From Triparma columacea (taxonomy: Eukaryota; Sar; Bolidophyceae; Parmales; Triparmaceae): a stretch of 64,000 nt of DNA. Positions 1 to 40,700 of this stretch are shown piece by piece; position 1 is the stretch's first letter; the number at the start of each line of letters is the position of its first letter. The notes beneath the pieces are model-generated. The model was not told the DNA's origin. It did no database searches and saw only the letters and a list, made by a program, of their open reading frames with translations. A program made the position numbers and the translations under genes. The DNA lies in NCBI GenBank assembly GCA_030267965.1, contig BRYA01000107.1, forward strand, positions 1 to 64,000. Direction: 5' to 3'.

Positions 1-81
1 TTTACACCCTTTACACCCTTTACACCCTTTACACCCTTTACACCCTTTACACCCTTTACACCCTTAACACCCTTTACACAC
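1..81. repeat. Telomere-like 9-bp tandem repeat
   Basis: Seven perfect copies of TTTACACCC run from base 1 to 63, followed by a variant (TTAACACCC) and a degenerate copy (TTTACACAC) to about 81. The G-rich complement is GGGTGTAAA. The C-rich strand reads 5'->3' inward from the left edge, which is the orientation expected for a left chromosome end. The unit is not the TTAGGG or TTTAGGG type, so it could be a divergent telomere repeat or a subtelomeric satellite. The sequence shows the array; the telomere role is inference. Confidence 0.6.
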
Positions 82-522: not shown

Positions 523-3500
523 TCACTTTCCATCCTCATCATCTACCGGAAAATCACTGCTTACTTTAGCCTTCCCACCTCCAACCTCTACAATATCTCC
601 ACCATCAGCGCCTCCAACACTTGCTCTCCTAATACTCGCTCTCATAGCACCTGCTACACCAACCTCAGCTTCAGCGTCAACACTTGCTCTCCTTACACTC
701 TCTCTCCTTCTAGCATCTCCAGATTCTGAAATGTATTCCACTGGCACTCTAGCTCTCATAGCGTCATCAAACCAATCTGGCTCCTCCTCCTCCCATCTTT
801 TCCAATTTGCCTGTACCCAAGTTTTCACTTCTCCTTCAATCGACTTCCAATGATGCTTTGACCTTTGGAATGTAAAGAAAGCCTTAACAGCATCTGAGCC
901 CTCTCTGAAATTCTTTACTGTTATGTCTTTACCTTTTTGGAAGCTGTAGAAGGTGCCCCGATATTTTTTCTCAATATTAAAGAAAAAAACAGCAAACAAC
1001 AAGACTGTAAATGGTATAACTGATTCTACTACTTTCCACGCCAATTTAAGGCCCTCATCTGCAACATCTCCCCTTTCAGCTACTAATATAGCTATTGGAA
1101 GACTTCCCATTGTCAATACAAACCCAAATATCCAATACATTCCTCCAACCTCATTAGGATGCCTAAATTGTACAATTGATGTAAAGTCATTCACCACTTT
1201 TACCACAACTCTGCTAAAACTGCTACTCAATATTTCTACATTGCCTCCTGCAAGAATCCAATACCAAAAGTCTCCTCTTAATATCTTTACTAACAAGTAC
1301 AGAAGCATATCAGCACCAGCATAGAGAGAGACCCATCTACCACCAAGTAGCCCTAACACAACTATTGTCATGCATCTTATCACAAGCATACCTGCACTAA
1401 AGAGCATCATTGCAACAAATATGATAGATCTTTTGGTGGGATTTGCAGGCACATACCCATAGAAGTCAGGCACTTGTTCTCTCTTCACTGGGTCAGTGTC
1501 AAAGTCATAACTAATAGTTGCTGAGGCATAGCCTGTTGTCAAAGCTGAAACGATAAGTGAGACCCAAGCTGCATCTGCAACGTCTTTTTTACTTGTTGCT
1601 ATAGCCATAAGTTGGATAATCACTCCAGGTATGGCTTCTGCAAACATTTCCACAACTTTCATGATTGTCAACTCAGCCATGGCATCAAGTGCTTGTTCAG
1701 CCTCTTGCTTTTCTCTCTTTGCAACCCTGTAAGCATCAACAGCAGACTTAAATCCAATCAAAATAGGAAACCATTCCTTAAGCACCCTCAACATCCCCAA
1801 CTTTCTATTTTGACCCCAAACAAAAATCATTTGAATCCCAATTGAAACCATCAAACTTGCCAAAGATGCCTTAAAGTACCCATACTTCTTATCACTCCAA
1901 AACATGTACGTCACATACACATCAGTAAGCAAATCAAACATAGATGTAACAGCACCAACAGTAACTCTGAATAAAAGCCCCCAAGGTGCAGTCTTCACAA
2001 CTCCCTTGCCTATCTCCACAAACATGCCCTCCATCCATGGAAATTCCTCAAAGAGCTCCCCAACAGCCCTGTTCTGTAATCTCCACATGTCTACCCCAGC
2101 CTCAATCACCTTCCTGCTCTTCAAACAAGGCATCAAGTTGTTTCCAATCACCCTTGCCTCCTTCTCCTCCACACACTCAAGCTTAGTAGACACTGAGCTG
2201 TTGGAGCTAAACTCACAAAGCCTTGCCCTCGTCAGCAAAGTGACAAACCAAGGGTACTTCTTCACAACCTCTCTCAAGCGACATTATACTTGCAAACCTC
2301 CTCAACATGTCTCTCTCTGTCCTTCCTTGAGTGTGCTCCTCCAAGTTGTCCTCCATCCCAAACCAAATCAGCACCCAAGGCCTCGCCAGCTTGCTTAGAC
2401 ATCTCAATTAGAGTAACAAGGTCAATAAAGTAGCGTTCTACTTCAGCAGCTTCGTCTAGGTGCCTCTCCAGAGTTGATCTTGTTGCCTCAACACTCACAG
2501 AGCTACCAAGCTCTATCTTGGTGACAAATTCTACCTTGGTTGTCTTCTCTCCCCTTTTTGTGAACATTATTGCGACTTCTTCAGATGCCCTTTGTGCAGT
2601 AGATCTCTGAGTGTTGCTCAAAGCATCACTTCTCTCCATATTCTCCAATATTGGCTCCATTCCAATCACAATGATATCTTCATCTACCTTGTGCAGCTTC
2701 ATCAAATTCCAGAACTCCCTATCTCTATGCATTCCTCCATGTTGTGACTCCAACTTCTGCCTTCTCCTCACAACCACTTCCCATGTCCCCTTCTTCTCCT
2801 CAACAACCCTCTCAACGTCTCCTGTTGTTTCTTGTTGGACTCTGCTCTCAAAGTCCCAGAAGTACGCAGCAGCTTCCTCCAAACCAGCTCTAACAGTCAC
2901 TGTTGTCTTCCCCCTTCCCTTTCCCATCTCCTCCACTTTAATAAAGGTATCTGAAAGAGGGAATGCACCTTCAACCTTTTGTTTACCTTCAAGCTCTAGG
3001 AAATTGGCATCAAATGTCTCAGTGGACATCTCTTTGATTTCGCCTATTCCACTTATTATCTGGATCCTTGTTGAATCATCAATGTCTCTGCTTCTGTCAA
3101 ACAACTTCCTCAGGTCTGAGGCTTGTGCAAGAAACCTTGGTGCAAGCTTGTTCACAATGGAAGAGAAGAAGACACCACCAAGGTCTACCTTTGTTGTGAA
3201 AGTCACTGCTGTTTGTGGCACACCTCCAATAGGGTCAAGTGGCTCAAACACCCATACTGTGTGAATCTTTACTAAAACATTCCCAGTCTTCACTGGAAAG
3301 TCTACCTGAAGTTCGTCTGTGTCTGCAACATCTATGATAACTTTGCCGTCGTCTTGTTTGAACCAGGTAACTTTACTCCGACCATCACGTGGAGCGAAAC
3401 CAGAAATACTGAGTTCCCTTGTTGTTGCATAGTAGATGGTGTGGGGATTTACTTTGATGACTTTCAAGAAGGTGATTCCATCAACTTCTTTTGCGTTCCT

Positions 3501-5880
3501 AGTAAAATACCTGTTGCCCAACTTGGTATATTCGTATGCTGCACACTCCTCAACACTAGCATCTACCACAGTAGCGGCAAAACCAGTCCCACTGCTTGCA
3601 CCATCAACATGAACTAGCTTCATCTTGACCCTCTCATCAGGACTCTTCAAATCATCAAAGTTCTCATCGTTCTTGCACTTCTCATAAAACTCCTTCCCCT
3701 TCCTGATTGCCGCTTTCTCCTTTTCAGTATAATCTTGGTGTTCTTTCTTGATGATTTTGGCAAGAGAGGCCAGTGCAGCTTTATCAACCTCTTCATCTTT
3801 CTGGAAGCACTCTAAAATACTTGAAATGATAGAAAGTGCATGGGGTAGCTTATGGTTCATGACCTTGACTGGAATTAGCCCGCCTGCATCAAGATATTGC
3901 TCTAGTTGGATTTTGCACTGCTTTGTCTTGCTGCTGCTTATGATGTTTGTGGCTGAGAAAATTGCATTGGAGGTCCCTTTGACTATTTTGCCTAGACGTC
4001 CTCCATAGTCAATATTATCTGAAAGTGTCCAGGCTGCAACTCTCGTGCTTCCATCCTCATGTCTCATCCAAATTTGTTTGAAGACAAACTCTCTGCTGTG
4101 CAGCAAGAAAGGCATCTTCTTAATTGTTGCATAGAGCTTCTCATTTGACCTCAATTCCTTGTGGCTGACCTCGAGCCTTGCAGGGTTCCCCTCCTCTCTA
4201 TCTGCTGCCGTCCTCTCCCTACTGCAGTACTCAAAGTACCAAGCAGCTGCCTCCTCTGCTGTACAGTCTACAGTTGATTCTGCGCGTCCCAAAGCTATAC
4301 TCCGCTCTCCATTCTTCTGCGCCTGGTGCTTTATCTTCATCTCCACTCCCTCATAAGGTGACTCAAGAGGCCCCCATCCTCCTTCCTCCTCCCCACCAAA
4401 GAGCTCCTCCAACTCCCCAAACACCTTCTTCTGGTCCTCCTCCAACTCAATGCCCTCCCTCATCCTCTCCACCAAGGCCCCCCTGACCTCAGCATCAACC
4501 TCCTTCCCATTCCTCCTGAACTTCTCTTGCAGCCTGTTGGCCTCAACAAGCTGACTCTTTGCAAGGTAGTCAATTGCTTTGTCCATCAGCGTCTTATGAA
4601 TGCCACTAAATTTCAGATCAACTGTTTGAATGCGTGTCACTCTACAGACATTTGGGGCAATCTCATTGAAGAAGTAGACACCTGTAGTCTCTGCTAGCAC
4701 AAATCCTTCCTTACTGAGGTCCTTGAAGCCTCCTCCAGGGTACTGTGTCAGTGGCACAAATGCTGACATGTATGAAGTCCGGCCATTCTCAAGTTTGACT
4801 TCCTTCCACACTAACCACATCTCAAAGAGTCGATTGGTGGCGGCCGGGACCTTCATGCCCAAATGATAGTGCATGCTTCTAGTTCCGTCAACATCATTCC
4901 TGATAACCCTTGGTAAGTTCCCATTATTTTTTAATTGCTCCTCTGAATACTCAAATGCGTCAAGCAGAAATTCCTCTGCCAACATACCCTTTGCTGACTT
5001 GTCCACCGTGACCCCAAAGGCTGCCCACACATTGTCCCTCTCTCTCCACAGGAACTTGTCGATGTCCTCCTTCAGTGTCCCCTTGACTCTCTTCCCCTTT
5101 GTATGAAGTTCCTTCTCTAGATTCCCAACCCTCTCCAACATTGTCTCCTCCTCTCTTGTCAGAGGCGGTGCCCTTGGCATGACCTCCTCCACAAAGTGCT
5201 TCTTCCTCCTCTCATCAAGAAGGCCAGTCTTTTGGAAGTGTTTCTCAATCTCACCAATAATGCACTTGAAGGCCTTGACAATTTCTCTTCTTTTTTCTAT
5301 GCTGCTAGATTTCACGGTAGAATTTTTCTTTGGAAGGTTGCTTTTCGTCTTACTAGCTATTGCAGTCACAGACTGAGCTACATTGATCTTGCTTTCAGGT
5401 GCTCCTAATTCTTTTTTCTCTTCGAGCAATACTGTAATATTTCCTGCAAAGGTCAGAGCTGTTTGCCCAAGTTCGAAATCAGCTAATCTGATGTGACCTT
5501 CCACCATTCCTCTTGGGTTGTTTGAGTTGCCTGCTACACTTTCTGCTAGATCTACATCTTTGACTTGCCCAATTTGGATGGTATATTTTGAGTCGTTTGT
5601 CTTTTTGGTCACCATCATGTTCATGAGGAATTCAGCTGAGATTTTCCGTCCCTGTTTTTGCTTCCATAGCACAATCCTTTCGCCTTTTTTGCTTGTTTGA
5701 ATGGTTTGCCTCGTGAAGTCTCCCTCCTTGATGTCACTAAGTAAAAAGTCCAGGACTTCTTCTGGATTATGGTGCAAAACTAAACCTAGTTCGGTTTTCA
5801 AGTCATGGTTGTCCTGAGAGTAGTGAAATAGACCTTCCACTGCACCTCTTTCCTCCAACTTTGCAATAAATCTTGTAGTG
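523..5880 (-). repeat. Intragenic duplication, copy 2 (C-terminal unit)
   Basis: This half of the giant gene aligns with the half about 5.4 kb upstream in the gene. Near-identical nucleotide blocks sit 5,400 bp apart, for example 3121-3180 against 8521-8580 and 4380-4500 against 9780-9900. The membrane parts match at an offset of about 5,400-5,430. Conservation is highest in the fourth START-like module and in the linker ending the second. Boundaries are approximate. Confidence 0.85.
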
Positions 5881-8800
5881 GATTCCTTGATCTCCTTCTT
5901 GTTGTATCTTCTTTTGCGGACAGCAGCCATTAGCTTTGCTATCTCTTTTTGTCTGAGGTAAGTGTCAGCGATGTTTTCTTTTGGCTTTCTGGTGGTGAGA
6001 TTCTCTAAACTTGTTTCGTCTGAAGGGAATTGATCTGGAATGTCTTGCTCCGGGCGTACAGGTTTCACCCTCTTTTTATTTGCACTGGTGTTTACAACTA
6101 ACCCTCTTCTCTCTTTCTCTTGCTGCCTAGCTGTGGCAGTAGGGATATATTCTAATGGTATCCTTGCTCTCATTGCCTCATCTAGCCAATTTGGCTCTTC
6201 TTCTTGCCACCTCTCCCAGTTGGTCTCAACCCAGCCTCGCACTTCCTCTTCTATTGACTTCCAGTGGTGTTTTGAGTACTTGAATGAGTACTTTGCTTTA
6301 ACAGCTTCATCCTTCCCTTCTCTAAAGTTTTTGACTGTCAAGTCCTTTCCTCTCTGTAAACTGAAGAAGGTGCTCCAATATTGCCTCTCAATGTTGAAGA
6401 AGAAGACAACGAAGGAAATGACAGTAAAAGGTATAAAATACCACAACACTGTCCACCCTATCTCTACCCCTCTCTTTGCATCTTCTAGATGCTCAGCTGC
6501 CATTATTGCTAATGGAAGACTTCCTAATGTCATAACCAAGCCAAAAGCCCAGTTAGCCCCTCCAACCTCATTTGGGTGTCTAAATTGAACAATTGAGGTA
6601 AAATCTGTCACAATCTTTACCAAAACTCTTGCAAAAGAGCTTAACAAAACTTCAACATAACCTCCTGCTGGTATCCAATACCAAAAGTCGCCTCTCAAAG
6701 TCTTTACAGCTAAGTAAAGACCAAGGTCTGCCCCAATGTAGGCAAAGGCCCACCTCTTCCCCGAAAGGCCCAACAGTACAATTGTTGTACACCTGATCAA
6801 CAGCATCCCTGATGACACTAAAAGCATTGATGCAAACACTATTGTCCTCTTGCTGGCCAGTGCAGGCACATAGCCGTAGAAGTCTGGTGTTGTTTGTCGC
6901 TTTTCTGGGTTTGTGTCCCAGTCATAACTGATTGTAGCTGAATTGAACCCTGTAGATAGTATTGATACAGTGAGTGAAAGCCATGCTGAATTAGCAATGT
7001 CTTTCTCCTGCTTTGTTGTTGCAATGGCCATTAGTTGAATAATCACTGCAGGGATTGCTTCTGCAAACATTTCGATGCCCTTCATGTACGTCATTTCTAC
7101 CATTGGATCAACGGCATGCCCAGCCTCTTGCTTCTCTCCTGTGGCAACTCTAAATGCGTCCAACGCTGGTTTGAAACCAATCAACACCGGAAACCATTCC
7201 ATCAGCACTCTCTTCATTCCCAACTTTTTGTTATTCCCCCAAACAAAAAGAAGCTGCATTCCCATTGACGCTGCCAAACTTGCCAATGAAGCATGAAAGT
7301 ACCCTTGTTTTTCATCATCTCTCGAAAACATGAGTGTAACATAGATGTCAGTCAGCAAGTCTACCATGCTTGTGGCAGCCCCAACCATCACCCTAGCCTT
7401 GACACCCCACCTTACTTCCCCCACCAGCGTGTATCCTATTGACTCCAGCAGTGGCCTCAGCCAAACATACTCCTTCATTAGCTGCCTTAATGAAGGGTAC
7501 TGATGCGCCCACTCATCCACCCCATGAGTTGCAGTTAGAGTAGTTGCTAACGTTATGGCCAAACTTGAACCAATATCCCTTCCCTCCTTTTTCTCCAAGC
7601 ATTCAGCCTTTCCTCCCACCTTCACCATTGGGCGTAGCTTGTTCATAACTACAGCACACAAAAGTGGATCAAAGAAACTGTACTTCTCAACAAGCTCCCT
7701 TAGTGCATTGTTTGCATTAATGAAATCTTTCACAGCTTTTGCTTTTGTCTCTCCCTTCTCCCTCTCCTTCACCCTCATCATCAGCTCCTCTGCCGCTACC
7801 TTGCTGTCTTCTTCTGTCATCTCTGAAGAGCTCTGAAGATTATTGAAGGAGAAAGATGCTTCAGTGGCTTGAGCTAGATGCTTCTTCAACACTTCAGTGG
7901 TTGCACCCTTGCTCACATTTCCTCCCAGAGACAAATTTGTCACTAATTCTACCTTTGTGTCTTTCTCTCCAACCTCTGTGAACCTCACAGTAGTAGACTC
8001 AGTCGCATTGGTAGTTGATTTTAATGATGAACGTTTTCTTGAGCTTCTTCTTTGCACCTCTTCCTCTCCCTCTTTAGGCTCAACTGTCATAATAAGAATG
8101 CCATCATCGACCCTCACTAGCTTCATCTTGGACAAGAACTCCCGGGTATGGTGAATTCCCCCATGCTTACTTTCTAACTTTTCAAGTCTCTTCACAACCA
8201 TCTCAAATCCTTCTTTCCTTAAAATCTCGACGATCCTTCGCTTTTCTACCCAAAAACCGCTGGTGACATCCCAGAAGAAAGCTGCTGTTTCCTCAAGACC
8301 TGCTCTCACAGTTACAACACTTTTTCCCCACCCCTTTCCCCCTTCAGCTTTCACCCAAGTGTTTTTCCCCTTTATCTTCTTAGCTCCCTTGACCTCCTCA
8401 AGCCTTTTCGCAACAGACTCGCTTCCAATGGTAGCAAGTTCATTCATCTTTTCAACTAGCTTTTTCCTGCTTACTTTGTCGATTTCCTTACTCTTGTCAA
8501 ACTTCTTTCTCAAGTCTGAGACTTGTGCAAGAAACCTTGGTGCAAGCTTGTTCACAATGGAGGAGAAGAAAATACCACCAAGGTCTGTCTTCGTTGTGAA
8601 AGTCACTGCTGTTTGTGGCACATCTCCAATAGGGACAAGTGGCTCAAATACCCATACTGTGTGAATCTTCACTAAAACATTCCTAGCCTTTACTGGAAAG
8701 TCTACCTGAAGTTCATCTGTGTCTGCAACATCAATGATAACTTTCCCATCCTGTTGCTTGAACCAGGTAATTTTACTCCTCCCATCACGAGGAGCAAATC

Positions 8801-11800
8801 CAGGGAGACCAAGTTCCCTTGTTGTGATGTAATAGAAGGTGTGGTCATTAACAGTTTTGACGTTATACTCAGTGATCCCTCGCTCCTTTGAAGTTTTACG
8901 GAATTCTCTTGAACCAAAATAAAACTCATCGGCAGCACACTCCTCCACACTAGCATCTACCACAGTAGTGGCAAAACCAGTCCCACTGCTTGCCCCATCA
9001 ACATGAACTAGCTTCATTTTGACCCTCTCATCAGGACTCTTCAGATCATCAAAGTTCTCGTCCTCCTTGCACTTCTCAAAGAATTCCTTCCCCTTCCTGA
9101 TTGCCGCTTTCTCCTCATCAGTATAGTCTTGATGTTTGTTCTTGATGATGTTGGCAAGAGAGGCCAGTGCAGCTTTATCAACCTCTTCATCACGCTTGAA
9201 GGAATCCCTGAGCACTGCTATTGTACTTAGTACTCGTGGAGTAGATCTGTCGACAATTTTGACTGGAATATGCCCCCCTGTGTCCATAAATTGGGTCAAT
9301 GTAAGTTTACACTGGAGAACACCATTATGGTCCTCAATATTCTTGGCATTGAGAATGCCACTTGTTGTAGCTTTCACAAGCTTTCCTAGATTTCCCCCAT
9401 AGTCTACCTGCTCTTTAGCTGGGACAAACGCTATAGACATGATGCCATCTTGGTGTCCTTTTTGCCACACATACCTCATCACAAATTCTCTTTTGTGAAA
9501 AGGGAAGGGAAGTTTCCTTACTGTTACAAACACCTTCTCATTAACACTTCCTTCGTCACTCTTCAGCATCTCCAGCCTTGCAGGGTTCCCTTCCTCTCTA
9601 TCCACTGCCATCCTCTCCCTGCTGCAGTACTCAAAGAACCAAGCGGCTGCTTCCTCGGCTGAGCAGTCGGTGATGCACTCAGCTCTACCAAAAGTGAGTG
9701 TCTTTTTTCCTTTCTCCTGCTGCTTGTACTTGATCTCCATCTTTACTCCCTCATGAGGTGACTCAAGAGGCTTCCACCCTCCTTCCTCCTCCCCACCAAA
9801 GAGCTCCTCCAAGTCCCCAAACACCTTATTCTGGTCCTCCTCCGACTCAACACCCTCCCTCATTCTCTCCACCAAGGCCCCCCTGACTTCGGCATCAACC
9901 TCCTTCCCGTTCCTCTTGAACTTCTCCTGTGCCTCGTTGGCCCAATGCATTTGTTTCTTTGCGAAAGACTTGAGGATAGTCATAGGAAGGGAACTGTTGA
10001 GGTCAGCGTGCTGCACGCGTAGGACTGAGCAGACTCGTGGGGCAATTTCTGTAATAACGTAAACACCATTTGAAGTGCCCTGCTCGTACTTGCCTGGGAA
10101 ATATACTTTTCTCTTCAGCCCTTTGTATTCACTTAAGGGGGCAAAAGCAAAAACAAAAGACACTCTTCCATTCCGATTAATGACCCTCTTCCAGCACCGC
10201 CATCCCTCAAAGAGTCTTGGTGCCAGTGGAGTTGGCAGCTTCTTCCCTACTGAGTACTGCTGGCTCCTTGTTCCGTCAATTTCCCAAAGCTTTCTTGGTA
10301 TGTTGCCGTTTTTCTTCTTGTGAGCAGCAGCCTCCTCGGAAGTGTTAATGACTGCCACTTCAGCCAAGAGGGATGACGCCGAAGTGTCAAGGACACAGAA
10401 TGAAACCGCAAATACTTTGCTTGTTTCCTCCTCCACATAAAGAAATTTGTCCACGCCTTCCTTTAAGGAACTGTACCTCCTCGCGTCAGAAGTAGTGCTC
10501 ACAAGTGCCACTCTTCCATTGATCATGCTATCCTCCTCTACTGTTAGTGGAGGCAAACTAGGCATAACCTCCTCCACAAAGTGCCTTTTCCTTCTCTCAT
10601 CAATAACGCCGGGCTTGTGGAAGTTTTTCTCGATCTCGCCAATTATACCCTTGAGGGAGGAATAAAGGAAATTTATGTCTAATTTCTTTCCAGCAGAGAA
10701 GGTCGTCTCTTCTGCTCGAAACTTTCCAGTAAGGACAAGCCTGGTCTGCCCATACTGAGCTGCTTCAAGATGCAGCTTTCCTTCGAGTCCAGCCCTCCTG
10801 CTGGCCTTCTTCTGAATTTGGTCTTGGTCCGTAAGTTTCTTCATAGCCACACTGGTTAAATCCTTGTCCCTGACGGACGTCAATGTGATGGTGTGGGCCT
10901 GATTGTAAAGGTCATGGCTTGTTTCTAATGTGAGGACATATTCCACTACCTTGTCCCCCGTGAGGTAGTGTCGCCAAAACGCTAGCCTCGTGCCCCCCTC
11001 CTCCTCTAGGGGGTCTAGGATGTGCCTGCGCCACACTCCATCTGCACACTCTTCAAGAAGGAAATTCAGCACCTTGTCAGGTAAATCGTGGATGAATATG
11101 CCCTGCTTCAATTCCTTGACAATGTCGTCCTTGGAAAGGTCGAGCTGCCCTTCCACTGCGCCTCTAAAAACTAAAGCATCGTAGATCTCATTGTGGATGA
11201 GCGCGTACTGCTCCTCATTGTCTGGGCCACATTGAGATGGAAGATGGTCGCTTGCAGAAGAAGGAGGATCACTTAGGAAAGAAGGAGCGCTTGCCGCAAG
11301 CGCAAGTGTAGGTGCAGGCGCATGCGTAGGCGCAAGTGTAGGTGCAGGCGCAGGCGCAGGCGCAGGCGCAAGCGTAGGCGCAGGCGCAGGCGCAAGCATA
11401 GGCGCAAGCGCAAGCGTAGGCGCAGGCGCAAGCGCAAGCGTAGGCGCAGGCGCAAGCGCAAGCGTAGGCGCAGGCGCAAGCGCAAGCGTAGGCGCAGGCG
11501 CAAGCGCAAGCGTAGGCGCAGGCGCAAGCGCAAGCGTAGGCGCAGGCGCAAGCGCAAGTGTAGGTGCAGGCGCAAGTGAAGGCGCAGGTGCAAGCGTAGG
11601 CGCAGGCGCAAGTGTAGGCGCAGGAGTAGGCGCAGGCACAGGAGGCGCAGGCACAGGAGTAGGCGCAGGCGCAAGCGTAGGTGCAGGAGTAGGCGTAGGT
11701 GCAGGAGTAGGCGCAGGCACAAGCGCAGGAGTAGGAGTAGGCGCAGGCGCAAGCGTAGGCGCAGGAGTAGGTGACGCAGGAGTAGGCACAGGATCACCAC

Positions 11801-11867
11801 TTGCAGGAGATGGTGGTCTCATGTCCATTTTGTCGAAGTAGGTCTGCGGACGGGATTGAAGGGGCAC
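523..11867 (-). CDS. Giant START-repeat membrane protein, split by a frameshift
   Basis: Two abutting minus-strand reading frames (11867-2274, 3,197 aa; 2277-523, about 584 codons) read as one gene of about 3,780 codons. The N-terminus (aa about 15-200) is an Ala/Pro-rich repeat. Two copies of one unit follow. Each has about five START/SRPBCC-like modules (copy 1 near aa 236, 469, 693, 941, 1170; copy 2 near 2006, 2269, 2499, 2742, 2972) joined by charged helical linkers, then a multi-pass membrane domain (copy 1 about 1390-1900). The membrane domain has conserved DLLTDIYVT, AEAIP and FRHPNEVGG motifs. Copy 2 breaks at the stop after KYNVA; the next frame resumes with LREVVKKYP, exactly where copy 1 reads NNALRELVEKY. 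One missing T explains this. The second frame begins at TTG, not ATG, so it is not a separate gene. No introns are needed. START modules usually bind lipids, so a membrane lipid-handling role is an inference. The break could be a sequencing error or a real mutation. Confidence 0.75.
2270..2286 (-). other. Frameshift junction in the giant gene
   Basis: On the minus strand the first frame ends AAT GTC GCT TGA. Reading one extra T (GCT TTG AGA GAG) continues directly into the downstream frame with homology to the other copy of the duplicated unit. There is no convincing donor/acceptor pair here, and the downstream frame has a stop (TAA) just upstream, so a single-base deletion is the simplest explanation. 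Confidence 0.75.
6090..11180 (-). repeat. Intragenic duplication, copy 1 (N-terminal unit)
   Basis: This is the intact copy of the 5.4-kb coding unit: five START-like modules followed by the membrane domain. It includes a module 5-to-membrane linker and a segment near 7480-7600 whose counterpart in copy 2 is divergent and shorter. Patches of very high nucleotide identity within otherwise diverged sequence suggest an old duplication with later gene conversion. Confidence 0.8.
11300..11790 (-). repeat. Ala/Pro-coding minisatellite
   Basis: A GC-rich tandem array at the 5' end of the giant gene is built from 6-bp subunits (GGCGCA, AGCGCA, AGCGTA and variants). About six near-identical 24-bp units between roughly 11400 and 11565 encode TLALAPAP. 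Flanking units encode APTPAPT-type repeats. Because the period is a multiple of three, several frames on both strands stay open (poly Arg/Leu and poly Arg/Lys), and those are artefacts. The array length is likely to vary between alleles. Confidence 0.85.
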
Positions 11868-13088
11868 GGGAGGTTTAGATCGGTGTAGATGAGCAGGGGC
11901 AAGGGATTATTGACACCTCTGAGCGGTATCCGACGTGGCCGAAAATGTGATGATGTCAGTGGCCTGACTCAGCACCAACTTTGTCTCTGCGGTAACTTTG
12001 CGGACCGAACAACGGCGGTATTTGGCCATTTGGGGAAGGGCTTGCCTACCTTGACTTACCTCGACCCGAATTATCCTAGAACAGTGGAGTTTTGGAGCCA
12101 GGCTCGGATGGCACGAGGTTGGTGGATTAGGATATGGTGGTGGGACGGGGGAGGAGGAGGATTGAGGGTAGGAGAGGTTTAAGATTGAGCAGGAAGGACG
12201 AGAAACCTGATTTACGGGTCGCAGGAGGTCCAATATACGAGATTTTAAAAACCAGTAAAAACAGTTGTGCCGAGGGAAGAGGTGTTGGGGGAAGCGTCAG
12301 GCAAGTTTTGCTTGTGATGACGGAGCTTTTAGTCGAAGCTGGTGTAATACAAAGCTCGAGTGCTAGTTATTGGGCGGTCGGTAGTCGGAGAAGCTCAATT
12401 ATTTTGGTGGTAAGGGTGCAAAGTGAAAATTGACAAAAATCGGCAAAATGAAATTGATTATTTGAGACTTTAAAAATGTATAATATTTCTTTGTATCAAA
12501 TTGAAACCTAAATTTATATATTTATATGTCTTAAATAGGATCTTGATAAATAGTGAAAATATTTTTTCAAAGGTTTCAAATCAGTATAAAGAAATTTTAT
12601 GGTTTATATGTAATTTTATAAAAATGAATAAATGGATATTGATTTATAAATATTCAAAAATTTGTCACAGATATAATCAAATATTCATAACTGATTCCAC
12701 TTTATTATTTAATATAATTTTGTGAAATGACATACATAAAATAGTATATATATGTTTATAAAATTGTATTGACAAGAATGTCACATTGGTCACGAAAATT
12801 TTTTGGGGAAAATCCATTGAGAATTTCGACCGTTTTGAAGCGTACAAGATATCCGCATCCGTAACTCTAGATTCTCTTGATTATTATTGATCTTCTTCCT
12901 CTTTTGATCCTCTCCGAACTCGTCAAACATCCATTCCACGGCCAAACCTTACTCTCGGCCTCGAACCCTTTAACTCTTTCAAGTTTTTGAGCCTTAAAAT
13001 CACGCTATATAGGTGATAAGCCACAAGGCGTTAGTCTATACCAATTTTTTGATTTATTTCTGTCCACAAGACTCCAACTTACCAAAGT
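11868..13088. other. Gene-free spacer with an AT-rich island
   Basis: About 1.2 kb separates the divergently transcribed giant gene and the F-box gene. The first 560 bp are of ordinary composition with no convincing exon. From about 12430 to 12790 the sequence becomes very AT-rich, with TTTATATATTTATATG-like runs, in sharp contrast to the GC-balanced neighbours. The final 250 bp before 13089 presumably hold the F-box gene promoter. The short open frame in the AT island looks like chance or degraded organelle-like sequence. Confidence 0.6.
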
Positions 13089-23419: not shown

Positions 23420-26400
23420 ATGGCATCTCCCACAGCACTAACCGAGGATAAAATCCAGAGCTCCACCTCTACAAAACCTGATACAGCCCCAACGTCTACT
23501 CCAGCTGCTGGATTGAAGGTATTTGCCTCTGTTAAGAACATGCTTGAGACGGTGCAGGTGAGAATTGGCAAGATTATCACCCAAATTTCGCACAAGCGTT
23601 GAAACAAACCCTAATCGCCCCCATATCCCCCCCCCTCCACCCCTCCACCCCTTCACCCCACTAATGTACCTCGCAGAAGGTTGGCTGGAAGGATGCTGTG
23701 ACTTCCCTTGAGGTGAGGATGGTTGATGATCCTGGGGACGAGAGGCCCACGATGGGTTAAGCAGCAACAAACGTATAATAAGCTGACCCTCCCCTCCTCC
23801 CTCCCCTCTCCCCCCAAATAGTACGCCGGCGATTATATAACCACGTGCGAGCACGCCAGCACCTTTGTAGCCACTTACATGCAGCAGATCATCAGGTGAG
23901 TGAGGAGAGCCGAAGAGAACCTTATCCTGCGCAAAATACCACACACTGACCGTTTGCTGACTGTCGCTTTGCTTATCGCGATAACCACTTCGCTCCTTGC
24001 CTCCCAATTACCCAGCATCCTGCTCGACCAGGATTTTGTAAAGTTGAATTCTATGCCTGTGGAGCGGAACTGTGTCGAGCAGTCCTTGCAGAATGCCGTC
24101 AAGGTCATCGCGAAGGATTTAGACCGCGCAGTCAAATCCAACTCGAGATCTACGCTTCTCACCACACTTAGCATGATATTCAACCCTGCTAGGCTCTTTT
24201 ACCAGAAGGTAAGATTCGCGAGACATGCGCTTGGGGAGGCACAAAAACAAACGAAAACAAGGAAAACAGCGAAAATAATGAAAACAACAAAAGCAACAAG
24301 AAATACAAAGTATAACTAACTTCCTTGCTCCTCACTCTCACTCACTCACTCACTCACTCACCATTCCTTTTTACTTCAACCCTCGTAGTCCAAGAACAGC
24401 TACAACAATTCCTCTTCCTCCTCACCGTCCAACGACGGCTTCCGTTGCAGCCTGATTTCTTCCTTTACATCCATGGGCGGGACGGCCAACCTCGTCGCTT
24501 ACATTAAGGCCCGGCCACCCTCTGAACTCCTGGATTCCTCCAAGATTGGGCTCGAGACGCTCAACCTTCTCCTCCTCGGTGCGGAAACTTCTCTCAAGTA
24601 TTGTGATACCACTACTCGTCCGCACACCCCCCCTCCCCCGCCCCCCACGAGCCCGTACGATACTCCCCCTCCTACGCCCGAAAGGACCGCCCCTACCCCT
24701 GCCACCCCTTCAACACCCCCTGCCCAACCTGCAACTGACCCTCTGAGGGCCAACCTATCCCTCATTACGACCAAGCTGATCGACATCCTCCTTACCACCC
24801 CTGACTCCGAACTGAAGTCTCTTCCTCAGGAAAGCATTTCCGAAGTCATTTCCACCATCCAGACTCTCCACACTTCCCTCTCCCCCATCCCCCCAATCCC
24901 TACACTGCCTAGGAATCCGAGCATGAACAATATTATTTACGCGAATCTACCCCCATGTCCCCCGCGTGAGTTCTATTCCGACTTCATCTTCCCCTTCACC
25001 CTTAACCTTTTGAAATCCAAGTCACTGCCCTCCCGCCTTTACGGTTGGGAGTTCCTCACGAACCTCATCAAAACTGCCCAGTGCTACCGTCCGCCCCCTG
25101 TTTCCTACTCTGTGCAGGGGGCCGGCCTGGAGTGGGCCAACGGCACGTTCACATTCGCGAACGAAACAAAACCTGATGGTTCCGCCAAGTTCATCGCGGA
25201 GGCTCCCAAGTACACCATGACTGCCGTGAACGGCAAGGTCCTGACCCTCTTCCGCTGCCAGATGAGGTCGAACCACAAGTGGTGGTTCATATCCGAGGCC
25301 GATCCGGAGCAGCCGGGAACCGACAAGGACGTTGACTACTACCAGCACAAGTCCTCCAAGTATGAAGAGAAGATGCCCCCTGAGGTCGGCTGGATGATTT
25401 CTAAGTGTCCCGAGATGGCCCTCCGCGACCCTCCTCCCTTCCTTACCCCGATTATGAGGCCCGACTTCGAGACTCTCGAGTACCAGGTCGCTGCCTTCAT
25501 CATATCCGAGGACCTTCTTGGCCTCATCTTTGGCTCGCACCTTCACAGGGAGGTGCTCAGCAGGTCCCAACCGATTGTCAACTTCCTTGCCTCAATGGGC
25601 AAGGGCGCTCGCCCCTCCGAGGTTGATGCGGCGTCCTTCTCCCTCTCGATAAAGCACATTTCTCACATCTGGGAGACCGGGAAGAACCAGGGCGTCATGG
25701 AGAGCGACGAGATCTACAAACTGCTCGCATCTCTTCTCCCCTGCCTCGAGGAGGCTCAGGCCGAGGCAATGTTGACAATGATTGCCAGTACTCTCAAGGC
25801 ATCTTCCAACCTTTCTTCGCCCTCTCCCCTTCAGAGGGTTGGTTCTTTTTGTGAGGCCGTCGCAAAATACAAGCCTTCAATCTCTTCCGAAACCACTGCC
25901 TCTCTAATGGATCTCATGTGGGCAACGCTCGTATACCCGGCTACTACATCCAACCCTTTGAAAGCGAAGAAGCTCCTCGAGGACTACTTTTTCTCAGTCA
26001 TGCGATCCCATCATGAACTGAGAGATGTTTTCATCCGTCGCTGTATTGAGTCACTTTCGACTCCCCTCAAATCTGGAGCTGCCGTTGACGAGTCGTTGAC
26101 ATCGACAATTCTCTCATTATTCCATTCCCTTATGCAGTCGTCACCCGTCGACGATGTTGTTGAGTTCGTCGAGTCATCCGCCAAAATTCTGGACCTCCTT
26201 ATCAACGAGACCATCCAGTTCCTCAAGCGAACTGTCGACAATACGTCGAGCTCCTCGAAAAAGTACCAAACGCAGAACTTATCCCAGCGCCTTGCAATCT
26301 TGCGTTTCATTTATGGACAATCGGACAATGTCAGTATTGAGTTTATCAAGCTTAAGGAGTGCTGGGAGCTCACCGCCTCTTCAGTGAAGCTTCGTGAGGA

Positions 26401-29400
26401 GCTCCTTTCCTTTCTTTCTGAGGGGTCAGGTTTCGACTATCACCTTGCCTCCTCGCACTTAGACACCTCATACGGACCATCTTCCTTCCCCTACACAGGG
26501 ACTCCCGACGATTTCTCGTCTTTAAAGCCGGCCTTCTCCATCAAAGTTTGCCACGAAGTGTTCCAATCTTTAATATGCCAAGGGGTCGCCAAGAAGCACG
26601 ACGTTGTCACCGTCAAAGGGTATGAAAGCATTAAGAAAATTATTGACGGCCTCGACGATAACAAGGCGTTCATCAATTCGGAACGCCAAGACTCCAGCGA
26701 ACACCTTTACAAGGAGTTCCAGGAGTTGCTTTGGAGCATCGCACTCACCTCTGACTCGGACGAGGTCGTTGACTCCGCAGGCTCTAGGTTGCTGAACATG
26801 TACACCCAAGCCAATGGGGCAAAGTTTGTCGAAACTGTCTTCCAGGCGATGGCACAAAAGCTTCCTCACCCACCGACTGTCAACAGGTGCATGAAACTCC
26901 TCACCGCTTCCATGAAATGTGGGCTTGAATCCCAGTACGAGAAGATTATCTACCGCTTAGGCGCTATGAACGAGATCGATTGCAGAGCCGTCGTATCTTC
27001 TGTGCCTCATGGGTTGAAGTCAGCCGCTTGCAAGAAGTCCGTCACCGTGGAGCTCAAGTGGTTAGACCAGAATTCGGCAGCACGCAAGTCTGTGCATCCG
27101 AGTTATGCTCTCCAACTGCACCCCCTCGAAACCCTGGAATCTGTCTTGAGGAAAATCGCCTCTCTGACCGACATCGCTTTCAATCTCTTCAAGCCAATGT
27201 GCGTGATGCTGAAGCGTTCCAAGCCGAACATCAACAACACACCGATTGCCACCTCCCCCTACCACACTACCATGTCGGAGCTATTCGTGACGGACGGAAC
27301 GAAAATCATCCTCATGGTTCGCAAGCAACCTGAAAAAAGTTCGCAACAGTATCTGCTGAAGAAGCAGTACCAAGGGGACTCTTTGGATGTGAACGAGTTC
27401 TTCGGGGAAACGAAGCAGTCGGCAAAATATTTCAACTTGTTGCTGAAGAATTTGGAGGGGCTGGGGGACGATGACGGTGGCAAGGAGGCTAAGGCATTGA
27501 CTTGGGACTTCCTGAGGAGCATCCAGACGAACCACACTGTTGTCATGGAGGTAAAGGCAGCCGCAGGCCTTGTTTACAGCGAGAGCGGGGATTGCAACTG
27601 GGCGACTCTCCTGAGCCCTAAGACTCTACACAAGTCCGTCTACACAATGCAGGTGATCGACTTCCTGCTTCAGCCCTCGAACGAGATTGGTAACGACACT
27701 ACTATGGCGTCGAAGGTACTGATGGAGGAGCTTGCTGGATTTGCCGTGTCCTTCAAGAAGGCTTTCATTGCCACCGGGGGCTTCTCAGCGCTTTTGCAGT
27801 TTTTCATCGGGGATAGCAAGAGCGACAGTGCGGCTAAGGTCGGGATGGGGAACGCCGTCGCCCTCCGCGTTCTCAAATTTTGCCTTTTTGGCGACTTTGT
27901 CGAGAACAAGGTTAAAAATTCTTTGCTGAAGAACATCAAGGACCCCGCGCCACTGTTGAACAAGCTTGCCATGGCAGCGCTTGGAGACAGCAATGAGAAC
28001 TCCCTTAACATCTCCAACGACCGTGTCGTCCTCGACGCCGTGGAGATGCTCAGGTTGTTGCTCCTTAGTAGCCAGAATCTTGTTTCTGCATTTGTGAAAC
28101 TCAAGGGCAACCATGCAGAGAATTTGGTCATGAAGCTCTTGCTTAAAAAGGGAGGCAGGGGGAGTGGCGGAGCCAAGATAAGGGAGACCATGCACAACTT
28201 GATCATTGACGTTGAAGCTCTTGGAATTGTGGGGTTCGGTTGGTTCCTCAAGTGCTTGAGCGGGCTTGGAGTTGAAGACGACAATGTCGGGGAGTTCTTC
28301 AACGTCCTTAAGAAGCTCGTCAAGGGGAACATCGTGAAGAGCAGTTCAGGGGAAGAGAAGGCAGTTGGACCGAGTGCCAAGTTGTTGGCCGATTTGGGCA
28401 CGAGAACTTGCACCAAATTAATCGAACTTGGGAAGGACGCAAAGTCTGGCGGCAACCCTGCAGTCTTGAATGGGTGCCTTTCCCTCATTAGGAGGCTTCT
28501 CGAGACCAAAGTGGAAGGCGGCGGAATCAACTGCCTCGGAGAAGGCTGCGAGCTCATTGCGAAGGCGAGGGACAGCAAAGCTTTCTTGGGAAGGGTCGTA
28601 TCGACGCTCGAGAAGCTGACCTTGAAATCTGACGGGAAGGCGCGAGTTTTAGGCAGCTTGGTAGGGCTGCTCTTTGAAGACTTTCTCTTTGCAATTGGGG
28701 ACAAGGGGAAGAAGCCAATTTGCACAGGCGAGGAGTCGAGAAGGTGCGCGTTCGCCGTGCTCCTGGCCTGCGCGAGAGCCGACGCGACGGGATCGGTGGT
28801 CAGTGTGATTATTGAGAAGGTCGGGGCCATGGTAGACAAGGGCGAGGCTGGCTTGAGGAATAAGTACGGTTTCATGGTCAGTAGCGACGGCAAAAGTGAA
28901 GGCATGATGAGCGGTCTGAAAAACCAGGGTTGCACTTGCTACATGAACAGCCTCTTGCAGCAGCTCTTCATGATGAAGGACTTGAGAGACTCACTCTGCG
29001 ACGCCCCAATTTCCAAGAAATTGAGGGGCGGGCTTGGAGTGGGGGATGAGGGAGGCAAGGGGATGGTCGGCAAGAGGCTGAGCATCTTTTGGGAGACTGG
29101 GGGGAGCTTCGACTGCAAAGTAACAAGCTTCGACGGAAAGACGGGGATGCATACCATTAAGTACGACGTCCAAAAGAGGCCCAGGGAGCTGGGAAGCATG
29201 GGAGCGTACGGGAACTACCACCAGAGAACCCCCAACGTATCGACCGATGATATGCTGAGGGCGTGGAATCTCGAGGAGAGGGAGGTTGAACTATTCTTGA
29301 CCGAGGGTCGCCCGGGAAGGGAGACTGGAAACTTTCAGCAGCTCAAGGGCGGGGAAAAGCCGCACGGGGAGGGGAGGCAGGGCCAGGGAGGCGGGGAAAT

Positions 29401-32400
29401 GAGCGGAGAGAGCGAAGGGAAGAAGGACAAGGGGGCGGAAGGAGAGGACGCTGAGGGGGAGGACGAGGAGACGGAGGATGAGAGGAAGAGTAGGAGGATG
29501 CTCGAGGAGCTACAGAAGACGTTTGTCCACCTGAGCAAAAGCGAGAAGCGATGCTATGACCCAAGGAGCCTGGTTGAAGCGAGTGACTGCCTGAGGCTGG
29601 AGTATGAAGTCTGGCAGCAGAACGATGCCTCCGAATACCAGACGAAGCTCCTTGACTCCCTGGAGATTGCCCTCAAGAAGCACGCTCCCAAGCACTGCGA
29701 TTACCTCACGGAGAAGTTTCGCATGGGCATTACAAAACAGAAGATCTGCAAAGAATGCGGCCTAAAAACGAACCGCGAAGAGGTCGTCGTGAACTTAGAA
29801 GGCCCGGTGAGGGGAAGGAGCGAGATCCTCGAGCTTATCGAAGGCTACTGCTCCGAGGAGCTCATGGACGGGGACAACAAGGTCAGTTGCGAAGCTTGCG
29901 ACAAGAAGACCGACACCATCCTGAGGACGTGCATCAGCAAGCTTCCAAAGGTGCTCACTGTAAGCTTGAAGCGGTTTGACTTGGATTACACTACTTTCGA
30001 GACTGTCAAGTTGAACTCCAGAATGGAGTTCGGCACGACGCTGAACATGAAGAAGTACACCCTTGAGGGCTTTGAGATGATGGACAAGTATAAGGCCGAG
30101 TTAAAGTCCAAGGAAAAGAGCGGAGACGTAGAGGGCGGAGGGGACGAGGACGAGAAGCAACTCGAGGATAGCGAGGAAAACATTGCGGTTGACACGAGCG
30201 CAATAATCGACCCCCTTGAGGCGCTCAGTGACGCGGGCAACGAGTATAAGCTCAGCGGCGTTCTTGTACATGCAGGCGTGGCCCAGGGGGGGCATTACTA
30301 CAGCTTCATAAAAGATAGGGATAGTGGGACTTGGTTTAAGTTTGACGACGACGACGTCACTCCATTTGACCTAGCGAACCTCGAAACCGAGTGCTTTGGG
30401 GGAAAGATGATGAAGGAGAGCAAGTGGCCCAACGGCACTGTCAACAACGTCGAGACCGAGCGGTACGCGAATGCCCTCATGCTATTCTACGAGAAGGTCG
30501 AGGAGGACATCGGCAAGGGCGAGAAGGTAGAGGGGAAGGAGAGGGTTGATAAGGAGAAGGCGGAGAAGGACCCTGGGGTTGCCAGCGACTCTGTCAGTGG
30601 CAAGGAGGCGTTCGAAAGTGTCGTACAGAAGGACAACGATACCCACATTCGGTATAGTTACCTCTTTGACGCCGAACTCTCGGCGTTCTTGAGAAACATA
30701 GTCCTCTTGGGCACCCAACCACAGAATACGTGGAGTTTGGTAGTGCCCCAGAGTGCAATCGCGTTCTTCTTCGATATCTTTTTGCACGGAACGACAACGA
30801 ACAAAAACCTCAAGATGTGGACTGACGTTCTTCTAAAGGCACTGGGGACCAACGAGGAGGTTTGCATCTGGTTCTGTTCCGAGCTCGCTGAAAGGAGCAA
30901 GAGAAAGAGCGGGAATTGGTTGAGGCAGGTTGGCAGCGACTGCATCGACAGCGGCAGCAGGGAGGCTGGGTTGAAGCTCATTGCCTGCGGAATGAGGAAT
31001 TGCATCGAAGCGAGCAAGAAGGAGGAGAGTAAGCTCATGGTTTGGACAGAGAGCTGGAAGAAGCAGACCGCGGGCTTGATGATGGGGGGCTCAGGATTTG
31101 CCGTTCCGACAACTCTGATGGGTGACATGGCGCAGTTTGAGAATTGGAAGACTGCGGGGTCGAGCGTTGGAGCGATTCTTGGATTTGTCAACCAGCTGCT
31201 GGAGGAATTCGTCATGTACTCCAAGGACGGGGTTGAGCTCTTGAACTTTGTTGAGGAGCTGACAATGACCGAGGGCATGAGGGAGGCCCTGGTGAGCAGT
31301 CACGCGATTGGCAGGGTGGTAACGCTGTTGATGCGCGAGGCTGCCCCCGGGGCTCTGAAGGATGCATATCCCGGTTGTTGCCTCAGCGGCGACGCCATCG
31401 AACTCATGAGGGGCGGGGGTACCGGTGGCGTGGGGGCGCACGGTCAAATGATTGGTTACGGCGCGGTTGGAATGACAGGAATCGGCGGGGGAGGCGAGGA
31501 CGACATCAATGCCGCGCTTCTTGGTTTGTTCGGAGCCCTGGCAAATGTCAAGGGCGTCCACAAGGCGCCGATCTCCGTTGGCGGCACCATCACCGACAAG
31601 GCCAAGGCCGCCTTCACGGAAATGTGGGACTCGTGCAGGGACGGAAAGGTGGGGATGGACTTGAAGAGCATCGAGAACTGTATGGTATTGTGCGGAGTTC
31701 AGCTCAACAACGTGCACGCTTACCAGGTGTCAACCATTCTCAACAAATACGATACCGTTGTCGAAAGTGACGGAGAGAAGTGCCTCACTTTGGAAGGCTT
31801 TCTCAGGTACCACAAGGAGACTGTGCTCACGAATGAGGAACAATTGAGGAACGATCTCAATACGTTTGGATTTAGGAGGGACTTGAGCAAGAGGGAGGAA
31901 GTCTTCGTCAAGGGGGACGGGTCAGGCTTGAAGCTGAGTGTTGGCATCCTTGAGGCTGCTGCGCTGGATACTGGGGGCAAGAGTGGCGGTGACTTCGGGG
32001 AGCTGACAGAGGTTGGACTGATGGAATTGCAGCTTTGGGCCACTTGCTTCAGGTGCGACGAGGGCTTGGCAGCCTCCGTCCTTGCTGCATGCTTCGTTGG
32101 GAACCCAAAGGGGGTCGGTACTCTCATTAACAACATTTTAGTGGGACTCTTTGATAGTATTGGCCAATGGAACTTCACGCAGACGGCAGTAGTGTATGGG
32201 AAGATTCTGACGGTGCTGGCTTGCATCCCTGACGACTTCCAAGAGGAGAGACTCGCGGTCATTTTGCAGAGCAAGCACGAGATCAAGGGAGTCGCTGTAG
32301 GTCTCATCCCAATGGCGAGGGAATTTGCCATGAACAACAGCAGGTACGCCAACCAGACCGTCCACGGGGATAGTAAAGGCCCTGCGTACACTTACATTGA

Positions 32401-33028
32401 CATCATAAAGAGAATGAGGGAGAGCCAGAAGGTCAAGGATTTCATGGCGGACGAAGGGAGGATTGCTGCTTGGAAGTGGATGGAGCAGTGGCTGACGGCA
32501 GATATAAGGGAGGGAGAGGGAAGGGGCGCAGGGATAACCGGGGTTGAAGGAGGGAACAATACTTTTGACAGCGACAGTGATGAGGACATCGGACCTGTTT
32601 TGGTGGAAGGGGCGGGGGTAGAAGCGGTGAATGGAAGATATGGATTCAGCGGAATATTTGATAAGGTCGGGAAGTGGACTAAGGAGGGCACAGATATGAA
32701 CGGGACCATGTGTCTGTACAGGTGCAAGTTGAACGACGACAGCAGGAGGTGGTACATTTCGGTTGTCCCCAGGGGCAGGAACCCCGGGACTAAGGACGAC
32801 GAAGATTACTACCAGAACTACATGACGAGGGGTGCGGGGCACGGATTATTGCCCCCTGTAAACGATTGGGTCCCAGTTTTGAAGCACAATGGGCTGGGGG
32901 TCGCCCCCGGGCCAACCGTGGTTTTGGCTGAAGCCCAGGTGCAGGCGGAAGGACATAGCTCCAATTTTGGGGGGGGGGATGATGATGACGACATATATGA
33001 GGATGTACCAGAGCTGAGCTATGTATAA
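23420..33028 (+). CDS. Giant ubiquitin-specific protease (USP9X/USP34-like size)
   Basis: Five exons: 23420-23557, 23677-23712, 23822-23895, 24016-24208, 24389-33028; about 3,026 aa. The four small 5' exons keep frame into the 8.6-kb last exon. The long N-terminal half is alpha-helical, with a ubiquitin-like segment near aa 1055-1128. The USP catalytic domain begins at the Cys box GLKNQGCTCYMNSLLQQ (aa about 1657) and contains the zinc CxxC pairs CKEC (1934) and CEAC (1982) and the His box HAGVAQGGHYYSF (about 2108). A Tudor-like insert (VGKRLSIFWETGG...) and an acidic, charged stretch lie between the Cys box and the core. An EF-hand-like segment is near 2552-2628. A domain with WANGTF/CLYRC/WYIS/PGTKDDEDYY motifs occurs at aa about 388-498 and again at 2887-3002. 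It removes ubiquitin from substrates; the targets are unknown. Confidence 0.88.
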
Positions 33029-38687: not shown

Positions 38688-40700
38688 TCACGCCCTCATG
38701 CCCCCCCCCTTGATTTGATTGAACCTACTAGCCAAACTACTGTGTCTGTACATGCTTTCCAGCCTGGCATCCTCCTCGTCTTCCACCATGACCTCTTCCA
38801 GCCATCCATCCTCTCCCTTTGGTTCCCTCATTGCCACCCTCGCCGTCAGCGCGCTCAGCTCCTTCCTCCTCCTCACAACGTCGAGGCTCCTCTCCCTCCT
38901 TTCCGCTGCGATCCTCTCATCCCTCTCATGCGCCGTAAGCATCTCGCTCGTTATGCCCTCTCTGACCGGTGCGTTTTTCCAGACGCTCCCCCCCCCATCC
39001 CTCTTTCCCCCTCCTGCCCCAACCCTGATGGCTGGGAGGCTGATGGCCCCGTCGTCGCTGACCCGGGGGCTCTGCCTGAAGCCGATGTCGCTGGCGGTCT
39101 CGACGACCTTCTGCTTCACCCTGTGTCCCCCCACCCCACCAAGCCTGATCCTCTCCGAGTACTAAGGGGGGGAGGGGGGTTAGGGGGACACGAGATGTAT
39201 CATCATTGTTTCAACCAGTCCACCTGTCCAACCAGTCCACCTGTCCATCCACCCGTATACACTCACCTCCCTCTTCTTTTCCAACCTTCTTCTCCTCTCC
39301 TCCGCCTTTCTATGTTCTTCCTCCTCCTTCTCCCTCCTCTCTCTGTTTGGGTTAAATCGCCTCCTCCTGAAGACATTCCTCCCCCCCTCGTCCCTCTGCT
39401 TCCCCTCGACCATCCGCTGGGCCTGCTTCTTCCTTATCCTCTCCCTCCTCCTTTGCATTTCCTCCTCCTCCCTCCGCCTGTCGACCCCCCCCTGCACCCC
39501 CCCGCCCCTCGAGTTCCTCCGAGCCCGGTCGATCCTCTCCCCCCTCATCTCTTTCCCTTTCTTCCCCCTTTCTTCCCTCCTCTTTCTGAGCTCCTCCCTC
39601 CTCCTCTCCCCGTTCACGTCCGACTTGTAGTTCCCTCCTCCCCTTGGAACCTGGCTATTGTTGAACTTCTTCTTCCTCTCGATCATGGCCCTCTCCACCT
39701 TTCTCTTTTCCGCCAACCTCTGCCTCTCTTCTGCCTTCTTCTGCATCCTCTCGAAGAGCGGCTTCCTCTTCTTAACCTTGCCCCCCTCCCTCTCTCTCTC
39801 CACCCCTCCCTCCCTCTCCCCCCTTGCGCTGGGTAGGCTGGGCGTGGTCATGCTGTCCTTGCTTCTTCTCTTCTTCCTCATTTCCACCCTCTTCTTCTTC
39901 TCCTCGAGCGCCTTGGCCCGGGCCTTTCTGTCATCCTCCATCCTCAACTCGGCCTGCCTTGCCTTCTCCTTTCTCAGCTTCACCTCCATCTCCAGTGTCT
40001 CTGTCAAGGCCCTCTGTTCGGCGAGTTGTTCTGCCTTCTTTTTTAGTTCTCGAAGCTGCAGTGGGGTGTATGGTGGGGGCTGCGTGTTAGCGCACCGAAT
40101 CGCACTGCTCCGCCCACACACTGCTCCGCCCATCGACCTCACGCNNNNNNNNNNNNNCCCCCCCCTCACCCCCCCCCCCCTCACACTCACCTTCTTCTCC
40201 CTCTTCATCTTGGCCACCCTCTTCTTCGCCTTGATTGCTAGCTTCTCCTCCTCCTGCCTCTTGGTTTCCCTCTCTTTCAAAAATCTGCTATTCGGAACCG
40301 GCGGCGCGGGCTTCAGAGGTTTCATGACAACCTCCTCCAAAACCACTTCCTTGTACTTGCCCCTGTAGTTGTTGGGCCTCCGCACCCCTTTAACCTTCTT
40401 GTCCCTCTTCGGAGGGGTCTTGGGCTTCTTCACATCCAGATTAACCACATCCCCCTTGTTTTCAATGTCTCCGACGCTCGCTTCCCCACTAGCCCCCAAG
40501 TCCATCTCAAACTCTCCAAGAATGTTGTCTATTGCCTGACTAGCTGCCTCTACATTGTCGCTCGATGCTACAGTCTCTTGGATTGGGGAAGGTACTACCG
40601 GCACGGCTGACTCGCCTTCAAACTGGGAGAGTATATCATCAATGCATAAAGTGCTGATTTCCAAGCAGGCCTCGAAGCTGGTGGGGGTTTCATCATTCAT
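38688..40700 (-). CDS. Highly charged coiled-coil protein
   Basis: Three exons: 40700-40191, 40079-39267, 39161-38688; 598 aa. The first exon holds an acidic N-terminus with two short similar motifs (IDDILSQFEGE and IDNILGEFEMD), then Lys-rich sequence. Exon 2 is almost entirely Glu/Lys/Arg coiled coil (KKKAEQLAEQRALTETLEME and RREEEEMQRRRERIRKKQ). The last exon is mixed and ends with a basic tail. The 13-base sequencing gap at 40145-40157 lies inside intron 1, so it does not affect the protein. The composition suggests a cytoskeletal or nuclear scaffold, but no family is recognised. The IDxILxxFE pair may be a short repeated binding motif. Confidence 0.55.
40145..40157. other. Assembly gap (13 N)
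   Basis: Thirteen undetermined bases sit within a C/G-rich part of intron 1 of the coiled-coil gene. Poly-C tracts on one side (40158-40180) probably caused the gap. Confidence 0.95.

Follow-up and report, generated by a model that had tools for sequence, protein, structure and literature searches.

A giant gene lies near the start of contig BRYA01000107.1 of Triparma columacea (assembly GCA_030267965.1), an alga of the class Bolidophyceae, the sister lineage of diatoms. Positions 1 to 64,000 of this contig were analyzed (hereafter the window). The gene, carried by the minus strand (523..11828, from the first ATG of its frame to the stop, with the frame broken at about 2276), encodes a series of START-like modules and two XK-related (XKR) membrane domains. 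We conclude, with a probability of roughly 0.55, that the locus belongs to a family of genes for giant membrane proteins located close to telomeres, whose products would couple START-type lipid transfer and XKR-type scrambling in a single chain.

A chain of START modules and XKR domains

The coding sequence is divided between two open reading frames (ORFs) of the minus strand, on which all parts of the gene described below are located. The larger ORF (2274-11906; 3210 aa, P0001) has its first in-frame ATG at 11828, while the smaller (523-2283; 586 aa, P0002) is in another frame and continues the giant gene after P0001. Five segments of 134-300 nt match, with 74-91% DNA identity, between two direct units 5385-5423 bases apart, in agreement with the two 5.4-kb units described in the first-pass annotation of this DNA, which was made from the sequence alone. 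The Ala/Pro repeat that it had placed at the front of the protein was also found, as an array of 12-nt repeats encoding the N-terminal tract (11235..11811; repeat family D1, at least 30 of 31 positions). The 31 register positions overlap, their spacing is mostly 12 nt, and together they span at least 11235-11811.

The membrane domain had been described as loosely reminiscent of XKR scramblases on account of two motifs, and both the Pfam search and a fold match now assign it to that family. The domain of unit 2 (946..1983), with the motif DLLTD in transmembrane helix (TM) 1 (1921-1935) and EMFAEAIP in TM3 (1627-1650), gave P0002 a score of 30.7 bits against PF09815 (cut-off 24.8). It is 66% identical to the domain of unit 1 (6375..7412; DLLTD, 7347-7361; EMFAEAIP, 7050-7073), whose predicted model contains eight TM helices and two intramembrane helices, in keeping with the XKR architecture of a repeated four-TM unit with intramembrane helices. 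According to the XKR9 paper, acidic residues of TM1 and TM3 are highly conserved across the family, its assigned scramblases included, and TM3 is hydrophilic and kinked at a PQL motif (PMC8298096). In 22 aligned sequences including P0002, residues D117 and D121 (TM1) and E204, E212, E216, P219 and Q224 (TM3) were invariant. The acidic residues of TM1 and TM3 agree with those of XKR proteins at the level of the helices, and the literal PQL motif is absent. Three further XK-related matches in the genome (C528:27823, C470:4815 and C133:39666) lie in frames of 241-640 aa and outscore all giant copies listed.

The START identity of the other modules was likewise upheld, with a Pfam START match to P0001 of 28.8 bits (cut-off 22) in a single stretch (549-653). 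In unit 1, modules 4 (8490..9131) and 5 (7836..8423) were recognized by fold, their best matches being the lipid-transfer START domains CERT and STARD4; abscisic acid (ABA) receptors were also among the fold matches. Module 2 (9915..10478), scanned alone, scored 23.1 bits against the Pfam START cut-off of 22, module 3 (9135..9773) is START-like, as its profile matches that of module 4 (E 1.8e-17), and module 1 (10617..11123) is helix-grip-like in its predicted secondary structure, with weak profile links to the other modules. The modules of unit 2 were counted by homology to unit 1: module 1 (5202..5744, edges approximate; 30% identity over 140 aligned residues), module 2 (4515..5078; 43%), module 3 (3735..4373; 54%), module 4 (3090..3731; 81%, far above the other modules) and module 5 (2436..3023; 42%). 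Fold, Pfam, profile and unit homology thus support the earlier count of some ten modules, besides the two membrane domains; module 1 of each unit is putative, being placed by predicted secondary structure. A search of PDB sequences with P0001 returned mostly low-complexity matches and nothing credible.

At the frame break (2276..2286), the window copy has one T fewer than its paralogues. The single missing T, at 2276-2277, is present in that or the equivalent register in the 29 other copies, as judged by eye in an alignment of 30. The open frames of these 29 copies are 804-4185 aa long, and in three of them the match is interrupted by one stop. As the source assembly is Illumina-only, according to the main text of its description (PMC10328945), the break may reflect either a genuine mutation or an assembly error. 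Since the relatives, judged by eye, stay in frame at that place, a short intron was considered a less probable cause than the deletion of one base. The claim of one gene agrees with the family, in which relatives carry the whole chain in one protein, and does not hold for the frameshifted window copy.

Among the TM3 places listed, 36 of the 42 spacings between adjacent XKR motifs were 1.75-1.9 kb, with tandem XKR domains often ∼616 aa apart. Because of this spacing, the usual gene seems to have the form START5-XKR-XKR, and the START5-XKR-START5-XKR form of the window seems to be exceptional. The window spacing of 5423 nt was the sole one of that size, the other outliers being 1677, 2334, 2451, 9035 and 35394 nt. 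START modules joined to XKR were also found in relatives: four metagenome relatives (P0140-P0143; 2383-2479 aa) are START5-XKR-XKR, an MMETSP transcript labelled complete (P0144) is M1-M5-XKR (M, module), a T. laevis protein (P0145) is M2-M5-XKR by BLAST, and P0146 and P0147 contain an XKR domain besides several START modules. In these stramenopile or unnamed relatives, as in the window, XKR comes after the START modules. Since START and XKR occur together outside T. columacea, their fusion is probably older than the amplification in this species.

Family copies at contig ends

The genome searched comprised 37.85 Mb in 789 contigs (published, 43.0 Mb in 1,858 scaffolds), and the T. columacea protein TrCOL_g13771 matched it with 100% identity over residues 37-929 of its 1481. 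A 26-nt TM1 motif, with up to three mismatches, was found at 268 + 311 places, and a 23-nt TM3 motif, with up to one mismatch, at 274 + 313 places; both controls gave 0. With ∼580 places for each XKR motif against none in the controls, the family is far beyond chance, and the genes are fewer than the motif places because many of them contain two XKR domains. Positions were examined for 100 of 579 TM1 places and 100 of 587 TM3 places (contigs C1-C121). Paralogues were scored for 75 of 776 candidates. In a separate tblastn search, only pieces spanning at least 250 query residues were kept. In the window itself, a tblastn search of 12001-64000 with six family proteins found no second member.

The copies lie near contig ends, with their 3' ends facing outward. 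For TM3, 95 of the 98 places of known geometry were no more than 7.4 kb away from the contig end faced by their 3' end (two plus-strand matches were left out, and four of the 98 copies, on C8, C40 and C67, were placed by minimum contig size). The exceptions (C8:38967, C62:39283 and C118:13208), 13-39 kb inside their contigs, are perhaps old chromosome fusions or misassemblies. For TM1, 86 of 87 places were within 8.1 kb of a contig end, 13 plus-strand matches of undefined contig size having been left out; the one exception, C62:39556, is the same copy as C62:39283.

Eighteen contig ends beside a copy were inspected. Five carry (TTAGGG)n, five more a perfect array of the 9-mer (TGTAAAGGG)n, and eight neither. 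The 9-mer array, directly bordered on its outer side by (TTAGGG)n in contigs C52 and C76, gave 246 overlapping matches in the genome; the minus-strand matches among the 100 listed are less than 700 bases from the contig start, with the G-rich strand outward. The TTAGGG search gave 445 and 499 matches, compared to 0 and 2 with a reversed-pattern control. The count was also made starting from telomeres. Among 51 ends with (TTAGGG)10 on C1-C282, 46 were examined (all but the ends of C216, C225 and C254 and the starts of C242 and C247). A START or XKR part of the family was found at 38 of them, and no family part within the 2-4 kb read at the other eight. The family is multicopy, with nearly all listed copies telomere-proximal and in one orientation, as in subtelomeric families. 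The window contig starts inside the subtelomeric 9-mer array (1..79, minus strand), which makes it most likely that the window copy is the last gene of its chromosome. Among telomeres lacking the family, the starts of C53 and C68 (L095 and L097) carry other sequences similar to each other, with ORFs that look kinase-like by eye. The starts of C70 and C160 (L069 and L108) have in common a 1740-nt block (95% identity) that matched neither START nor XKR and is a further subtelomeric duplication.

Some contigs appear to be complete at a very small size. TTAGGG repeats were found at both ends of C70 (75,484 bases), C71 (84,296 bases) and C75 (67,733 bases); by strict motifs, nine contigs among C1-C121 have a telomere or the family at both ends, and other contigs have inverted family copies at both ends. 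Twenty contigs picked by number measured 10.8-82.7 kb. Of eight parmalean assemblies, four have a published N50 of 73-83 kb; in the remaining ones, which include T. columacea (63.5 kb), it is 8.2-63.5 kb. Compared to random breakage, for which the expected maximum was 262 kb, the observed maximum was 129.5 kb (P 0.0001); the test is weak, as its 100 contigs were for the most part not drawn at random and breakage during assembly does not follow an exponential law. The very small telomere-to-telomere contigs suggest an organization into many small chromosomes in the sister group of diatoms. A broader proposal is put forward tentatively, at somewhat less than even odds: T. columacea, and perhaps all Parmales, would have hundreds of chromosomes of ∼55-130 kb, most ends carrying a START5-XKR(-XKR) gene, which together would form a repertoire of one-chain lipid transfer-scramblases diversified by recombination, with shuffled modules. 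Its odds are lowered by the N50 values, which lie at 73-83 kb in only half of the assemblies, and by the eight of 18 ends that have no terminal repeat. In a non-exhaustive literature search on Parmales chromosomes and Triparma telomeres, no report of such an organization was found.

The remaining sequence of the window is gene-dense and normal-looking. A 2879-aa open frame on the plus strand (24389-33028), ubiquitin-protease-like by eye, appears to be an ordinary cellular gene, and a minus-strand ORF (39180-40715) contains a short stretch of unknown residues corresponding to an assembly gap. A bacterial-type promoter scan of positions 1-600 was set aside as having no relevance for T. columacea.

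Selection, proposed mechanism and alternatives

Selection was examined over the last 586 aa, in the 435 pairs formed by 30 copies. The median nonsynonymous (dN) and synonymous (dS) divergences were 0.119 and 0.394, and the median of their ratio, omega, was 0.30 (range 0.20-0.45; window copy, 0.28). The proportion ratio pN/pS did not reach 1 in any of 29 windows of 20 codons, the highest value being 0.84. This part of the protein is under purifying selection throughout, and diversifying selection, the mark of variant antigens, was not found in it; antigenic variation is accordingly ruled out for the last 586 aa. The same stretch was free of stops in 68 of the 74 paralogues listed, a list that favours good matches. 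Divergence between copies is uneven. Between units 1 and 2, module 4 is 81% identical, the membrane domains 66% and the other modules 30-54%, and pS along the membrane domain varies from 0.14 to 0.67. Both are signs of gene conversion, and the identity peak of module 4 (3090-3731 versus 8490-9131) points to a local event.

In the mechanism that we favour, the START modules would pick up or deliver membrane lipids at the cytosolic face, with the array as a tether that holds them next to the membrane; the domains closest to these modules in fold carry ceramide/diacylglycerol or sterol. Animal XKR domains scramble phospholipids, and the fused XKR domain would equilibrate the delivered lipid between the two leaflets, net transfer thereby being coupled to scrambling within one chain. 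The telomeric position would permit ectopic gene conversion and growth in copy number, so that many variants would arise in which START modules and cytosolic tails differ around a conserved XKR core. The "lipid-handling machine" of the first-pass annotation is thus a function that we infer.

Several results weigh against this reading. On the START side, one of the ten modules passed the Pfam cut-off when scanned singly, six of 19 aligned relatives gave a START match at E 0.01, module 1 of each unit, drawn from predicted secondary structure, is putative, and a second profile of module 5 gave weak links to modules 2, 3 and 4 (E 0.038, 8.3e-4 and 0.0079, respectively). On the XKR side, the unit 1 domain scored 17.4 bits against PF09815, under the cut-off, and P0144, P0145 and P0147 were below it as well. 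A profile search of PDB sequences (alignment A3) retrieved XKR9 only at E 0.4, ranked after two RNF8 chains, and two other profiles (alignments A1 and A2) returned nothing credible. Of five relatives scanned, only P0146 and P0130 exceeded the cut-offs of both Pfam families. The window copy is frameshifted, and scramblase activity is known for only some XK-related proteins.

The last point, which extends to many XKR proteins, also favours a possible but rather unlikely alternative, in which the START array would act as a lipid sensor, binding lipids and gating an XKR-fold receptor, channel or regulated scramblase, with no lipid carried between membranes. Helix-grip domains, START included, also act as ligand sensors, the ABA receptors among the fold matches fit such a role, and a chain with several modules in tandem might combine signals. 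However, it is the lipid-transfer domains CERT and STARD4 that modules 4 and 5 match best, and the conserved acidic TM1 and TM3 residues of XKR scramblases are paralleled by the invariant ones found here.

It is improbable, in our view, that the family is a subtelomeric passenger, spread by ectopic recombination with most copies dispensable and the window copy a decaying pseudogene. The frame break, the stop in the last 586 aa of six of the 74 listed paralogues, and the patchy module identity and pS, which point to recombination, would all fit. Dispensable copies are nevertheless hard to reconcile with the stop-free state of the other 68 despite a median dS of 0.39 among the 30 copies, with pN/pS below 1 in every codon window, and with START-then-XKR proteins in other stramenopile or unnamed relatives. 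Very improbable is a mere bias of assembly, whereby the family would break the short-read contigs and its copies only appear terminal. Repeated genes do break assemblies, the source assembly was made with Platanus from Illumina reads (PMC10328945, main text), and eight of the 18 inspected ends lack both TTAGGG and the perfect 9-mer array. Yet ten of these ends do carry one or the other, the listed copies are oriented one way, towards the end, and 38 of 46 TTAGGG ends chosen independently of the family carry it.

Comparison with known systems

According to the main text of Ban et al. (2023), START is among the domains most enriched in parmaleans, and multi-domain START proteins are shown there; the terms "telomer" and "XK-related" are absent from that main text, and the supplementary tables may list the fusion (PMC10328945). 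In the titles and abstract openings searched, we found no description of a START-XKR fusion or of its telomeric position.

Compared to the known members of the XKR family (XKR4, XKR8, XKR9 and XK; PF09815), the domain is here fused to the end of a row of some five START modules, is often doubled in tandem and is present in hundreds of motif copies. To our knowledge, animal START proteins contain a single START domain each; unlike CERT/STARD11 and STARD4, the proteins described here have five or ten in tandem per chain.

There is a functional likeness to VPS13A-XK, and also to Ist2-Osh6, in which a lipid-transfer protein and a scramblase work in a coupled way at the same membrane; for VPS13A and XK, coupled delivery and leaflet equilibration have been proposed (PMC9436381). 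In that pair, two separate proteins are involved, with a bridge-like chorein channel, and in Ist2-Osh6 an Osh shuttle acts as a separate protein, whereas here START modules are in the same polypeptide. By homology, P0140-P0147 also have transfer-type and scramblase-type parts on one chain, the former being START and not chorein. A VPS13_C search of the T. columacea genome was uninformative, since control genomes were also without a match. So far, the cooperation of scramblases with lipid carriers that act on a single leaflet has been studied in sets of individual proteins, VPS13A and XK among them, and a natural single-chain START-XKR fusion would make the coupling of transfer and scrambling directly testable.

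Subtelomeric multigene families include VSG, var, TLO and Y'. The START/XKR family has in common with them the terminal location, the single orientation and the signs of recombination. It differs in belonging to a free-living alga, in encoding membrane lipid domains and in the purifying selection acting on the last 586 aa. Hundreds of telomeric copies in such an alga, if true, would make this a subtelomeric family of a new kind, beyond those of parasites and yeasts.
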